The notes under the pieces: generated by a model
Told to the model about the DNA's origin: nothing
The model's database searches: none
The model's input: only the letters and a program-made list of their open reading frames with translations
Made by a program: the position numbers and the translations under genes
DNA from: Methylomonas sp.
Lineage (GTDB): Bacteria; Pseudomonadota; Gammaproteobacteria; Methylococcales; Methylomonadaceae
Direction: 5' to 3'
Assembly (NCBI GenBank): GCA_026989395.1
Contig: JALSJK010000086.1
Location: 1-64,000, forward strand
DNA length: 64,000 bases
In this document: piece by piece, positions 14,601-22,438 of the stretch
Position numbering within the stretch: the stretch's first letter is position 1
Layout of the letters: each line of letters opens with the position of its first letter

Positions 14601-15188
14601 TTATACAGTTTTTTTCCTTCTTAAACCTAATAACATTAAACTGCTGCCAAACAGCCATATTGCAGCAGGTAAAGGTGTCTCAATAACTGGGGCGGGGTCT
14701 GTGTAGGTTGTGGTTAAGTTATTAAAATTAAACCAGAATATATTGGTAAGCCCATTGATCAAGTGACTTCCGTTAATCTTTAGATGGTCATTTTGATTGG
14801 GAAATGAAGAATAATAAGTCCATTTACCGTTAGAAGCATCTTCTGAATAAAGAACATAGGTTTGATTTTCTTCCAGATCCCAAAATACATTTGCCTGGTG
14901 ACTGATCTCTCCATTTGGACTTCCATAAGAATACAGAATGTCACCATCGCTATTCATTAATCTGATGGTATCTGCTTTTCCCTGGTTCTGAAAAGTAAAG
15001 CTGTCCAGCGTTATATCAGCTAGAGCAATAAATTCAAGACCAGAATTAGCAAATGTATTTCCATTGGTATTATTTGTTAATTCCGGGCCTTCTATTGATA
15101 ATGTTATTGAAGCCCTAGCTGAATTTATTAACATTAAAAGCAGCAAGAAAGTTAAAAAGGGTTTGATGATTTTATATAGATAAGACAT
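14601..15188 (-). CDS. Exported PEP-CTERM-type protein
   Basis: 195 residues. A signal peptide (FLTFLLLLMLINSARA) precedes a beta-rich, Asn/Thr-rich domain of unknown function. The C-terminus reads TPLPAAIWLFGSSLMLLGLRRKK: a Pro-containing motif, a hydrophobic helix and an Arg/Lys tail, the layout of a PEP-CTERM sorting signal cleaved by exosortase/EpsH. The variant PLPAAxWLF is frequent in methanotrophs and some other gammaproteobacteria. No exosortase lies in the window. Such proteins are usually secreted into extracellular matrix; the function of this one is unknown. It is convergent with malQ. Confidence 0.75.
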   Translation of the reverse strand: MSYLYKIIKPFLTFLLLLMLINSARASITLSIEGPELTNNTNGNTFANSGLEFIALADITLDSFTFQNQGKADTIRLMNSDGDILYSYGSPNGEISHQANVFWDLEENQTYVLYSEDASNGKWTYYSSFPNQNDHLKINGSHLINGLTNIFWFNFNNLTTTYTDPAPVIETPLPAAIWLFGSSLMLLGLRRKKTV

Positions 15189-17679: not shown

Positions 17680-18345
17680 ATGAAAGAGAATATTAAGAAA
17701 GTAATTACCTACATTTACTTGGTAATTACTTGTGTTGGAGTTTCTAAAGCTGGACCTTTAGATTCACTCGATATTGGCGAGATAGGAAGAGCCAAACAAG
17801 TTTTACAGAACTTAAGAAATGTTCCACAAGCAAGGGCATTTTCACCGTCACCAGCACCACAGTCAGAAATTTTGCTGATTGAAAGACGCCCTGTAGAAAA
17901 AGGAACGGAGCGTTCTGCTCCGCGACTGGTCGATGTTTATTCCTACAATTATGAGACAAATAAGCTCAATCAAACAGTTATTGACATAAATACCAATGCC
18001 GTACAATCGGTTACAGAAAGCCAGGGCGTTCAATTACCGCTAATCGAGAAAGAGATCAGGCAAGCAATTGATTTGGTTTTTAATGATCCTCAGCAGTTAC
18101 AACTATTAAATCAGGAATATCAGAGACTAACTGGTCAAACCTTAACCAGTGTAGATCAGGTAAAAGTCAAAGCTTTTACCTTTCTTGGCGATAGTCTTCC
18201 AGGTGTCGTTAATGAAGATGCCAAAAACTGCGGTATTCACCGTTGTGCCCAATTGTTGCTTTATACCTCAGATTCAGTTGCTTTTGAAATCAGTCCGGTT
18301 ATTGATCTCTCAACAAAAAAAATAATTCAGAATATCAATTTCTGA
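17680..18345 (+). CDS. Exported copper-amine-oxidase N2/N3-domain-like protein
   Basis: The start chosen is the ATG at 17680, preceded by GGAGGAAGC; an in-frame ATG 33 bp upstream has a weaker site. Protein of 221 residues with signal peptide (YIYLVITCVGVSKA). The mature part follows the layout of the N2 and N3 domains of copper amine oxidases. GPLDSLDIGEIGRAKQVLQ matches the HPLDxLTxxEIxxA start, a strand pair VDVYSYNYETNKLNQTVIDI follows, then QLPLIEKEIRQAIDLVFNDPQ, and the protein ends with FEISPVIDLSTKKII just where the catalytic domain would begin. No catalytic domain is attached; the next two genes encode catalytic domains. The homology is read by eye and moderately sure. Confidence 0.65.
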   Translation: MKENIKKVITYIYLVITCVGVSKAGPLDSLDIGEIGRAKQVLQNLRNVPQARAFSPSPAPQSEILLIERRPVEKGTERSAPRLVDVYSYNYETNKLNQTVIDINTNAVQSVTESQGVQLPLIEKEIRQAIDLVFNDPQQLQLLNQEYQRLTGQTLTSVDQVKVKAFTFLGDSLPGVVNEDAKNCGIHRCAQLLLYTSDSVAFEISPVIDLSTKKIIQNINF

Positions 18346-18370
18346 ATCTAGAATAATTTAGGGGAATAAT

Positions 18371-19540
18371 ATGAAATTTAGAGTCTTTATGATTTTGGTT
18401 GCTATTGCAATGGGAGCAACCAGCACCACAACAACTGCAAGACCGGTAGGTCAAAGCTGTCCTTCAGGACAAGTTATCAATAACACGTTTAGCTCAGGAG
18501 CAGGATGGGATATTTGCTGGGAAGCTGAATCTAAGCAAGGCATAATTTTTTCAAATATCTACTACAACACACCTGCAGGAATTTCCCGAAGAGTACTGGG
18601 AGAAGCCTCGGTATCACAAATTGTCACTGAATTTGATGATGGCAGCACTAGCCAATTTACTGTTACCCAAAATGGTTTGGGTGGAGATAACTTGGTTAAT
18701 TTAACATCTACAGATTGTCCTAATGGCCAAAGGCTTCAGTTAAATGGCAAGAATGTTTTGTGTCAATCAACAAAAGCGAGAGGCTATATTCACAAAGACG
18801 ATGTTCGTCAGCGCCAAGGTGAATTATTGGATTTGTTCAGCATTTCCAAAATCGGGGGTAAAACCTATATAGTCCGTTGGAAATTTTATGATAGCGGTAT
18901 CATCGAACCGATGATCGGTCTGTCGGGTAAGCTGGAGAAATTTGGCAGTAATGTAAATTATGGCTGGACAGTGGGGCAAAACAATCAAATTGCAATTGGT
19001 TTCACCAATCATTACTTTTGGCGATTGGACTTTGATCTGGGTGAAACTCCGGATGATGATGTTGCCGAGGAAATTATTAGTGTTCCGTCTTCGGATCGTT
19101 TGAAAAAAACCATTCAAATTCAATCAATGGCTTCTGAAGCTGGTCGTTCATTGGATTATGAAACGAAACGTTTCTGGCGGATTCGTGATGCTGCTATTCA
19201 AAATTCTAACGTAGGTTTCATTTCCTATGAGCTAGTACTGCTGAATTATGCTCATCAAGGACAGGGAAATAGTAATGTGTCATGGCTAGGCAATGATTTT
19301 TTTGTCACAAAATACAATTCTTGCGAACGTTTTGCAGTAGATAATCCATCTCAAAATGGCTGTGGCACGAATATCACGCAATTTGTTAATGGAGAAAATG
19401 TAAATGAAAAAGATTTGGTGACTTGGTACAGAGCAAGTTATCACCATTTACCCAGAGATGAAGATTTGAATTCAGTACCTGTCAGATGGACGGGTTTTCA
19501 ATTGTTACCCAGAGACTGGGTTTCTGAAAATCCTCTATAG
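18371..19540 (+). CDS. Exported copper amine oxidase catalytic-domain homologue, predicted inactive
   Basis: 389 residues with an Ala/Thr-rich signal peptide, AGGGGA ribosome-binding site and a 25-bp gap to the previous gene. The fold markers of the amine oxidase catalytic domain are present: WDICWEAESKQGIIFSNIYY, EASVSQIV, WKFYDSGIIEPMIGLSGKL, YFWRLDFDLG, and near the end SYHHLPRDED with FQLLPRDW. The functional residues are mostly lost. The TPQ tyrosine position is Lys164 (IGGKT instead of xGNYD/E), the catalytic Asp position is Thr97, and the HxH copper pair is Phe211/Asn213. Only the third ligand His359 remains. It is most likely a pseudoenzyme or binding partner of the next protein. Confidence 0.75.
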   Translation: MKFRVFMILVAIAMGATSTTTTARPVGQSCPSGQVINNTFSSGAGWDICWEAESKQGIIFSNIYYNTPAGISRRVLGEASVSQIVTEFDDGSTSQFTVTQNGLGGDNLVNLTSTDCPNGQRLQLNGKNVLCQSTKARGYIHKDDVRQRQGELLDLFSISKIGGKTYIVRWKFYDSGIIEPMIGLSGKLEKFGSNVNYGWTVGQNNQIAIGFTNHYFWRLDFDLGETPDDDVAEEIISVPSSDRLKKTIQIQSMASEAGRSLDYETKRFWRIRDAAIQNSNVGFISYELVLLNYAHQGQGNSNVSWLGNDFFVTKYNSCERFAVDNPSQNGCGTNITQFVNGENVNEKDLVTWYRASYHHLPRDEDLNSVPVRWTGFQLLPRDWVSENPL

Positions 19541-19588
19541 CGTCCAATTTTGAATTATTCCAATAACAAAATTACACAGGTATCAATC

Positions 19589-22438
19589 ATGAATTATTTA
19601 TTGCACGGACTAAAGTCTACAACATTATTTTTTATACTCTGCATATACAGCTTTAATGCGCAAGCAGCAGAACATTGTGCTGATCAATATTATATTGATG
19701 TCACACTACCTAATGAGGCTCGATGGGATATGTGTTGGGAACATCGTAATCGCGAAGGTATTGTGCTTCATCATGTCTATTACACTCCAAAAGGAGGTAA
19801 TCGAGAGCTGGTTTTGTATCAGGCCAGTATTGCCCAGATTTTTGTGCCATATAATGATAATGGCGCACGTTATCATGATGTATCGGATTATGGTATTGGC
19901 GGCAGTTACATGCTTGATCTGAAGCCTGCGGATTGCCCAGGGGGATCATTATTAGCCTTTTCAGGGAAAAATGTTATTTGTCAGCAAACCCAGAAGAAGG
20001 ATTTTGCTCATCATGCTGGTTCGGACTCCCTTCAAGGCGATGCCTTGAGTATATTAAGTGTTTCCGGTGTTGGCGCTTATTATTATATCCCACAGTGGAT
20101 TTTTCATGATGATGGCACTATCGAGCCGGTAATGGGAGCAACTGGCTCATTACAACGGTTTGGTGATGCGACAGAAACCTCGCATGGTTGGCCAATCAGT
20201 CAAAATCGAGTTGGTTTGGCGCATTTGCACAATTACTACTGGCGATTGGATTTTGATTTAGGCACATCAAGGACGGATGATTTTGTTGAAGAGATAAATC
20301 ACACGCTAAGTTCAGGCAAGCGGATTCGGTCAACAACCCGGTTTTCATCTGAAGTCGCAAGGGAAGTTAATCCTGCAACATTGAGATCATGGCGAATTGT
20401 TGATGGCGCCAATACTAATACAAATGGTCATGCCAAATCATTTGAATTTTTATTGCAAGAAACCGGGCATAAAGATAAAGGACCCAGCTCAGAACCTTAC
20501 ACTTTAAATGATTTCTTTGTGACCAGTGCCAATAATTGTGAGATTTTTGCATCACATAACCCTACCACGAATGGTTGTAAGCGAAATTTGGCGGAATTTG
20601 TAAATGGTGAAAATATTACTAATGAGGACATTATTGTTTGGGTAGGAGTCACTTTTTATCACATGCCAAGGGTTGAAGATGCACCTCATATGGATGCTCA
20701 CTGGAATCATTTTCATATTGTTCCCAGAGATTGGCATGCGAAAAATCCTTTGGGTAATGGTGATGCTGGGCCTGGAAATACCCCGCCTGTAATTTCAAAC
20801 CCTGGTAATCAGATTAATCAGGTAGGCGATATCATTAACCTGGCAATTTCTGCGACTGATGCTGATGGGGATACCCTTAGCTTTTCAGCAAATAATCTTC
20901 CGGCCGGACTCACAATCGATAGTTCAACAGGAGTTATTTCAGGAACTTTAGTAACTGCATCAGATGGGCTTGATGTTACTGTTAATGTTAGCGATGCCAG
21001 TGAAATCAGCAGTATTTTATTTAACTGGCAGGTTAATGATGGCAATACGGGAGGGGGAAATACACTTTTTTCTGATGATTTTGAATCTGATTTGGGCTGG
21101 CAAGTTAATCCTACTGGCTTAGATACGGCAACGACTGGTAAGTGGCAACGAGCGGATGCCGAAATTACAGAATACCGGGGTTCTGCTATCCAGCTTGGTG
21201 ACTCGCATAGTGGAAATTTTCATCTTGTTACGGAAGCAAGATCAGGTGGACGGCTGGGTGCAGCAGATATTGATTCCGGGGTTACTGCAATTATTTCCCC
21301 GACAATTGCTATTCCGGCAACTGGTGATTATGAGTTATCCCTATTCTATTATTTCTCCCATTTATCAAATGGGAATACTGATGATTTTCTGAAAATCACT
21401 ATCAAAGGGGATAATAATCAAACGGTTATTTTAAACAAAAAAGGTAACAGCAGCTTGGTTGCCGGCAGCTGGACCAAGTTAACGCAATCATTGAATTCCT
21501 TTTCCGGTCAGAACATTCGTATCTTAATTGAGTCGGCAGATGGCGGTTCTCCAAGCTTGATAGAGTCAGGAGTGGATGATGTGCTAATCAAGAAAACTGG
21601 TGATACAGTAAATCAAGCACCTCAGATTGCCAACCCCGGTGATCAATCCAATGTCGTTGGTGAATCAATCAATTTAGCAATACAAGCAACTGATTCTGAT
21701 GGTGATTCTTTAAATTATACAGCAACAAATTTACCCCCCGGGCTATCCATCAATACCAATAGTGGTTTGATTTCAGGTGCAGTCCTGGCAAATGCTGTTG
21801 GTTCTCACAATGTTACCGTTACTGTTACAGATGGTGTTGAAAATGCAAACGCCACTTTCACATGGCGCATTGAAAGCGATAATGGCAATGTTGAGCCAAT
21901 TGTTTTTAATGATGATTTTGAAACTGAAATGGGCTGGGTAGTCAATCAAAATGGTTCTGATACAGCGACACGGGGACAATGGGAGCGTGGTAACGCCGAG
22001 GAAACAACTTATCAAGGAACCACATTGCAAGTAGGCAATTCTGTCAGTGGTTCTAATCATTTAGTTACTGGCAGGCCTGCCGGTGGTTACGTTGGTCAGT
22101 ATGATATTGACTCAGGAAAGACATCAATTATTTCCCCGGAGATTAGTTTACCGGCCAATGGTGAATATGAATTATCATTCTCATATTATTTTGCACATCT
22201 TTATAATTCTGATGCTAATGATATTTTTAGGGTGACTATTCAAGGGTCAAACAATACTGAAGTTGTTTTAACCAAAAATGGCAGCAATGAAACCTGGCCT
22301 GGATCATGGGAAGTATTTTCTACGTCATTATCCAGTTTCGCTGGTCAAACAATAAGAATCTTGATCGAAGCTTCAGATGCCGCTAGCCCCAGCCTGGTTG
22401 AGGCAGGCGTAGATAATGTTTTGATCAAAAGAAATTAG
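19589..22438 (+). CDS. Exported multidomain copper amine oxidase-like protein
   Basis: The ATG at 19589 is preferred over a TTG 39 bp upstream because the signal peptide then fits; 949 residues. Residues 28-388 are an amine oxidase catalytic domain with all expected functional positions. Base Asp97 is in YHDVSDYGIG, the TPQ-precursor Tyr164 in VGAYYY, copper ligands His212 and His214 in AHLHNYYWRLDFDL, and His358 in YHMPRVED. The residues flanking the tyrosine (A and Y) differ from the usual N-Y-D/E. Then come two repeats of an Ig-like He_PIG domain (about 400-490, 677-767) plus a 175-residue DDFE-LGW jelly-roll-like module (493-670, 771-949). The usual N2/N3 domains are absent. Predicted reaction: primary amine plus O2 to aldehyde, ammonia and H2O2, outside the cytoplasm. 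Confidence 0.8.
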   Translation: MNYLLHGLKSTTLFFILCIYSFNAQAAEHCADQYYIDVTLPNEARWDMCWEHRNREGIVLHHVYYTPKGGNRELVLYQASIAQIFVPYNDNGARYHDVSDYGIGGSYMLDLKPADCPGGSLLAFSGKNVICQQTQKKDFAHHAGSDSLQGDALSILSVSGVGAYYYIPQWIFHDDGTIEPVMGATGSLQRFGDATETSHGWPISQNRVGLAHLHNYYWRLDFDLGTSRTDDFVEEINHTLSSGKRIRSTTRFSSEVAREVNPATLRSWRIVDGANTNTNGHAKSFEFLLQETGHKDKGPSSEPYTLNDFFVTSANNCEIFASHNPTTNGCKRNLAEFVNGENITNEDIIVWVGVTFYHMPRVEDAPHMDAHWNHFHIVPRDWHAKNPLGNGDAGPGNTPPVISNPGNQINQVGDIINLAISATDADGDTLSFSANNLPAGLTIDSSTGVISGTLVTASDGLDVTVNVSDASEISSILFNWQVNDGNTGGGNTLFSDDFESDLGWQVNPTGLDTATTGKWQRADAEITEYRGSAIQLGDSHSGNFHLVTEARSGGRLGAADIDSGVTAIISPTIAIPATGDYELSLFYYFSHLSNGNTDDFLKITIKGDNNQTVILNKKGNSSLVAGSWTKLTQSLNSFSGQNIRILIESADGGSPSLIESGVDDVLIKKTGDTVNQAPQIANPGDQSNVVGESINLAIQATDSDGDSLNYTATNLPPGLSINTNSGLISGAVLANAVGSHNVTVTVTDGVENANATFTWRIESDNGNVEPIVFNDDFETEMGWVVNQNGSDTATRGQWERGNAEETTYQGTTLQVGNSVSGSNHLVTGRPAGGYVGQYDIDSGKTSIISPEISLPANGEYELSFSYYFAHLYNSDANDIFRVTIQGSNNTEVVLTKNGSNETWPGSWEVFSTSLSSFAGQTIRILIEASDAASPSLVEAGVDNVLIKRN

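Follow-up and report, generated by a model that had tools for sequence, protein, structure and literature searches.

A three-gene unit related to copper amine oxidases, with separate D2/D3, dead D4 and active-type D4 proteins, in Methylomonas and other bacteria

The window studied here (the whole stretch of 64,000 nucleotides from a Methylomonas sp.) carries at 17680-22438 on the + strand three successive genes which together correspond to one copper amine oxidase. The first encodes a free-standing D2/D3 (N2/N3) module, the second a catalytic domain (D4) in which most catalytic residues have been replaced, and the third a D4 where they are intact. The homology with copper amine oxidases is beyond doubt, and the organisation of the trio is unlike that of the described single-chain homodimers. 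Probably the three proteins form a single secreted or surface-located heteromeric copper amine oxidase of the topaquinone (TPQ) type, both the complex and its activity being what we infer from the genes. The features of the locus are as follows.

17680-18345, + strand: gene 1, N2+N3 (D2+D3) subunit, export predicted (fold and profile matches, CxxxRC motif)
about 17680-17751, + strand: predicted signal peptide of gene 1
18371-19540, + strand: gene 2, catalytic-domain (D4) pseudoenzyme, export predicted (PF01179 at 2.6e-28, model, residues lost)
18659-18661, + strand: gene 2 Thr97 at the position of the catalytic base Asp (alignment)
18860-18862, + strand: gene 2 Lys164 at the position of the TPQ tyrosine (alignment)
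19001-19009, + strand: gene 2 Phe211-Thr-Asn213 replacing the HxH copper ligands (alignment)
19592-22438, + strand: gene 3, D4 subunit with C-terminal Ig-like and choice-of-anchor J domains (PF01179, He_PIG, choice_anch_J)
19880-19882, + strand: gene 3 Asp97, catalytic base (aligned with AGAO Asp298; all 86 active copies have Asp here)
20078-20083, + strand: gene 3 Ala163-Tyr164, TPQ precursor tyrosine, with Ala replacing the canonical Asn
20225-20233, + strand: gene 3 His212-Leu-His214, copper ligands 1 and 2
20663-20665, + strand: gene 3 His358, copper ligand 3

The open reading frames (17647/17680-18345, 18371-19540 and 19550/19592-22438, all +) are separated by 25 bases between genes 1 and 2 and by about 10-50 bases between genes 2 and 3. 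Residue numbers are counted from the Met at 18371 for gene 2 and from the Met at 19592 for gene 3, the frame of which opens at a TTG at 19550. A sequence-only reading had proposed three consecutive genes for exported proteins; the genes are there, and export is likely, judged by the hydrophobic signal-like segment at each N-terminus. The GC content of the three genes (0.38, 0.40 and 0.41) resembles that of the flanks (0.39 and 0.41), therefore composition lends a foreign origin no support and a recent foreign island was rejected on GC, even though the trio is patchily distributed (three of 237 genomes of the family). A viral origin was likewise discarded, as a search of IMG/VR with two peptide patterns gave zero relatives, and so was frame decay or assembly error, since the trio with intact frames recurs in some 50 loci. 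Elsewhere in the window (14601-15188, - strand) lies a gene for a small exported protein whose tail (LPAAIWLFGSSLMLLGLRRKK) resembles PEP-CTERM, at a Pfam E-value of only 0.095.

Protein 1 on its own gave no match in a Pfam search, the N2/N3 models included, and a few of its homologues match the Pfam N2 models weakly (best 0.0004-0.003). When PDB sequences were searched with protein 1 or the profile built from it, amine oxidase matches were absent or weak (0.44 and worse) amid unrelated ones, so that profile-profile and fold comparisons were needed to identify the protein. The NCBIfam primary-amine oxidase profile NF008559 matches at 2.3e-7 over positions 12-145 of 648. In hhalign the profile of mature protein 1 homologues (71 rows, 64 used) aligned with 13 full-length amine oxidases at P 1.9e-9 and a score of 73.5, covering residues 41-252 of the first target row, while the top score of 20 column-shuffled versions was 20.2. 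The AlphaFold2 model (pLDDT 93.7) matches AGAO residues 9-192 in Foldseek at 1.3e-8, and VIA-align gave a best Z of 10.4 (8.6-9.5 for the AGAO rows) with an rmsd of about 3.0-3.6 over about 166-173 residues. The match spans the whole mature protein, AGAO 9-192 or ECAO 91-281 from end to end, so protein 1 stops where D3 stops in the single-chain enzymes. Its CxxxRC motif is invariant in 67 homologues. Thus the claims that gene 1 carries N2/N3-like domains only and ends at the boundary between N3 and the catalytic domain both hold, and the structural match to N2/N3, set beforehand as a test, was found.

Protein 2 matches PF01179 at 2.6e-28, and its model (pLDDT 93.5) superimposes on AGAO (2yx9) with Z 37 and an rmsd of 2.3 over 347 residues; as modelled, it is a complete D4 domain that is catalytically dead. 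Thr97, Lys164, Phe211 and Asn213 stand where the base, the TPQ tyrosine and the first two copper histidines are expected, and a His is retained at the position of the third copper ligand, so four of the five catalytic residues are gone. In a plasmid search with protein 2 all the matches listed were distant (23-26 percent identity) and mostly ordinary single-chain oxidases. Protein 3 matches PF01179 at 9.4e-43 and keeps all five residues (Asp97, Tyr164, His212, His214 and His358). No D2/D3 is fused N-terminally to its D4, this module being encoded by the separate gene at 17680-18345; C-terminally an Ig-like domain (He_PIG, 2.9e-31) and a choice-of-anchor J domain (7.2e-10) follow. The residues which the sequence-only reading had named in genes 2 and 3 were all recovered by alignment, and its view of gene 2 as an inactive catalytic paralogue agrees with the profile match, the modelled fold and the replaced residues. 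That both genes carry catalytic domains only is correct for gene 2 and not for gene 3, because of these C-terminal domains. In many copies from Thiotrichaceae and Granulosicoccaceae the C-terminal tail ends in GGGS-type segments followed by hydrophobic and basic residues, a composition that suggests surface anchoring; protein 3 of the window has no such tail.

A scan of GTDB genome contigs gave 203 relatives, of which 80 loci were kept and analysed; they were fetched by motifs common to both paralogues, so the counts call for some caution as a sample. These loci span Thiothrix, Cocleimonas, Leucothrix, Granulosicoccaceae and other Gammaproteobacteria as well as Chloroflexota, Streptosporangiaceae and Wenjunlia, and the recurrence of the trio in related genomes, which had been proposed as a check, extends to other genera, families and orders. 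The order N-dead-active is found in 51 of the 80 loci (47 simple, two N-dead-active-active and two dead-active-N-dead-active). Two further loci are dead-active and cut by the contig end, and one Chloroflexi locus reads N-dead(frameshifted)-active; in this Caldilineaceae locus (L061, 964-2230) the dead copy lies across two overlapping frames, by frameshift or assembly error. Seventeen loci, mostly from Actinomycetota, are N-active without a dead copy (15 read directly, two with the frame of the active gene called too far upstream). The remaining nine (L039, L046, L047, L049, L051, L054, L055, L056 and L057) are lone active genes with neither an N nor a dead gene as neighbour, and every one of their assemblies (prefixes JAGRJD, CALMZC, CALFUP, FUYB, CALAJG, CALKXC, QGKM, PDPG and QGKL) also holds a trio, as if several active subunits might share one scaffold. 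With the exception of these nine, no locus whose contig extends far enough lacks the N gene, and throughout all loci there is one strand and one gene order. In the sampled loci the dead copy always lies directly upstream of the active copy, and in profile searches of 237 genomes of the family and 369 of the class there was likewise no dead copy lacking an active one. Within the window's family the trio occurs in three of the 237 genomes, belonging to three genera and all encoding particulate methane monooxygenase, and eight other genomes have single-chain enzymes only. One of these three trio genomes (G226) and locus L025 carry the same trio.

We sorted 142 sequences by the five residues (the Asp, the TPQ Tyr and the three His). 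While 86 keep all five, 56 keep none, one or two, and not a single sequence keeps three or four; because the sorting itself defines the two sets, the information lies in this empty middle and in the operon position, dead first and active second. In the dead copies the base is replaced by Leu, Gln, His or Val, the TPQ tyrosine by Arg, Leu, Gln and others, the first His by Phe or Ala and the second by Asp, Val or Leu, and several Trp, Gly and Cys positions that bear the fold are retained at roughly the level seen in the active copies. A tree that included a single-chain outgroup placed 53 of the 54 dead copies in one clade (SH-aLRT 100). The dead copy outside it belongs to a divergent trio on long branches (L006, 1019-5757, genome G032) and retains the second His without the first and third. 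This trio is perhaps an independent duplication or a case of fast evolution, and a single origin of all dead copies, L006 included, is not rejected (p-AU 0.144). The dead copies are under strong purifying selection: their pairwise dN/dS, taken from computable pairs only with synonymous-saturated pairs left out, is 0.013-0.13, and N and active partners show a similar range. The one clade and the low dN/dS mark the dead copy as a long-standing component kept by selection.

From these observations we infer an assembly, a subunit ratio, TPQ formation, amine oxidation and a role for the dead subunit along the following lines. Protein 3 would be the only catalytic subunit, its D4 binding copper through His212, His214 and His358 and its Tyr164 becoming topaquinone, so that primary amines would be converted to aldehydes and H2O2; its C-terminal domains would put it on the cell surface or beyond it. 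Protein 1 would supply the D2/D3 module that is fused to D4 in ordinary enzymes. Protein 2 would occupy the second catalytic position of the D4-D4 dimer, with a structural role and possibly one in substrate or surface binding, and would carry out no chemistry. Known copper amine oxidases are D4 dimers whose arms extend into the active site of the partner (PMC3382800), and hence a dead D4 would have an obvious structural job.

It could also be that protein 3 is a self-sufficient homodimer which binds the N2/N3 subunit, and that the dead paralogue, although encoded in the same operon, is a separate exported protein (e.g. a binding protein, an inhibitor or an activator) outside the oxidase particle. 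The N-active pairs without a dead copy in Actinomycetota, Chloroflexota and Hydrocarboniphaga speak for this. Relatives from Actinobacteria do without the dead subunit, so the fold does not generally depend on it. The N-active pairs of Actinomycetota presumably use active-active dimers, in which case the dead copy would have arisen later, by duplication in a lineage that is now mostly gammaproteobacterial. Against a separate protein stands that every dead copy in the sample immediately precedes an active one and none is found alone, also in the family and class genomes searched, and that it keeps the whole D4 fold together with the conserved core Cys residues. We regard this arrangement as unlikely, though still worth keeping in mind. 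The heteromer is favoured by the obligate linkage, the fixed order, the purifying selection on the dead copy and the restriction of lone active genes to genomes with a trio, but co-divergence and linkage by themselves do not prove contact within the trio.

A further difference concerns the surroundings of the TPQ tyrosine. The consensus of ordinary copper amine oxidases is T-x-x-N-Y-D/E (PMC3382800), and protein 3 departs from it with GVGAYY, a point that the sequence-only reading had missed. The Asn before the tyrosine, Asn(-1), is absent from all 86 active copies of the split family and present in all 13 single-chain oxidases compared. Its place is taken by Ala, Trp, Ser, Glu, Gln, Thr or His; Gly(-2) and Tyr(+2) are constant in the 86 copies. 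All active copies also share a His in the alignment column of AGAO Asp605 and a Met in that of AGAO Met602, both of which are rare in the dead copies. Of the flanking consensus positions, Thr and Asp/Glu are missing from almost all active copies too; however, they also vary in single-chain controls such as the methanotroph oxidases, which keep the Asn in the motif WIGNYI, so that only the loss of the Asn distinguishes the split clade. In AGAO the exchange N381A still allows TPQ to form, with a 180-fold slower biogenesis and a 160-fold slower kcat (PMC9491219). By analogy, the split family would permanently carry a change that cripples a standard enzyme: either its control of TPQ must differ or its activity may be low, and the activity could also be of another kind.

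Pursued further, the loss of Asn(-1) in 86 of 86 copies and the near-complete loss of its neighbours could mean that the unit no longer oxidises amines and that its copper site serves binding, adhesion or some other oxidation in a surface copper-binding or adhesive structure. The large Ig and anchor-J tails would fit this, as would the particulate methane monooxygenase encoded by all three family genomes with a trio, which makes copper handling relevant in the host. We nevertheless find such a function improbable. The Asp, the TPQ Tyr and the three His, although they were the selection criterion, come as a block without intermediates. The Tyr that corresponds to AGAO Tyr284 lies outside the criterion and is also 100 percent conserved in the active copies; copper binding alone would not require the Asp and both Tyr, and AGAO N381A does make TPQ and turns over slowly (PMC9491219). 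That gene 2 is just a decaying, functionless duplicate, as its loss of four of five catalytic residues might suggest, is contradicted by purifying selection (dN/dS 0.013-0.13) and by some 55 copies with intact frames in several gammaproteobacterial orders, in one old clade and at a constant position, which makes it extremely improbable.

In search of a wider conserved operon we found that most recurrent neighbours are antisense artefacts of GC-rich genomes or lineage-specific synteny, and the idea was dropped with one exception from Thiotrichaceae. A gene for a MauG-family di-heme peroxidase lies 3' of the active gene in 16 loci of Thiotrichaceae type and in one from Pseudomonadales (PF03150 at 1e-37 to 1e-45 in the three tested), and in most of them a small YtkA-like lipoprotein with the motif GGMPxHGHGLPT is encoded in between. 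Examples of this pair are L026 10602-11843, L031 13770-15416, L043 10314-12411 and L058 12237-13628. A peroxidase adjoining an H2O2-making oxidase could possibly serve H2O2 removal or a MauG-like maturation of the cofactor. Neither gene adjoins the trio in this window, and the MauG-type genes in the three trio genomes of its family sit on other contigs than the trio. Beside the trio of G226 (L023, 2-7199) we read from the translations a large repeat protein and what resembles a complete type I secretion operon, with genes for an ABC transporter, an HlyD-like adaptor and a TolC-like protein. One may speculate, with little confidence, about an obligately asymmetric class of enzymes in which the dead D4 and the free D2/D3 replace Asn(-1) in topaquinone control, the MauG-type di-heme protein of Thiotrichaceae possibly matures or protects the quinone, and interchangeable active subunits use a shared N-plus-dead scaffold.

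The retention of the trio across many bacteria suggests a new, asymmetric build of copper amine oxidase, which would give bacterial cell-surface biology a quinoprotein that contains a pseudoenzyme. As a natural and conserved split it tests the roles of the second D4, of the D2/D3 module and of the Asn flanking TPQ, and cultured model strains exist in Thiothrix, Leucothrix and Cocleimonas for the trio and in Streptosporangium for the two-gene form.

In the open-access literature searched we found no description of a split or pseudoenzyme-containing copper amine oxidase, and the structurally characterised enzymes are single-chain homodimers according to a review of 2012 (PMC3382800). With AGAO, ECAO/TynA and HPAO the trio shares the D2, D3 and D4 folds, the catalytic Asp, the TPQ tyrosine, the three His and the Tyr284 equivalent. 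It differs from them in having D2/D3 and D4 on separate proteins, an additional dead D4 paralogue, additional C-terminal Ig and anchor-J domains and no Asn(-1) in the TPQ motif. Methylamine dehydrogenase is a bacterial quinoprotein that oxidises amines with different subunits and whose TTQ cofactor depends on the maturase MauG. It resembles the complex proposed for the trio as a multi-subunit amine quinoprotein, and a MauG-family gene adjoins the trio in Thiotrichaceae, but its fold and its cofactor are different and the window trio has no MauG gene beside it. In trypanosomatids AdoMetDC with its prozyme, and deoxyhypusine synthase with its dead counterpart, are activating heteromers of an active enzyme and a dead paralogue (PMC5201418, PMC3663545). 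Although these pairs have unrelated folds, are eukaryotic and intracellular and lack a split-off domain subunit, they are like the trio in that an active enzyme is kept together with a catalytically dead paralogue.
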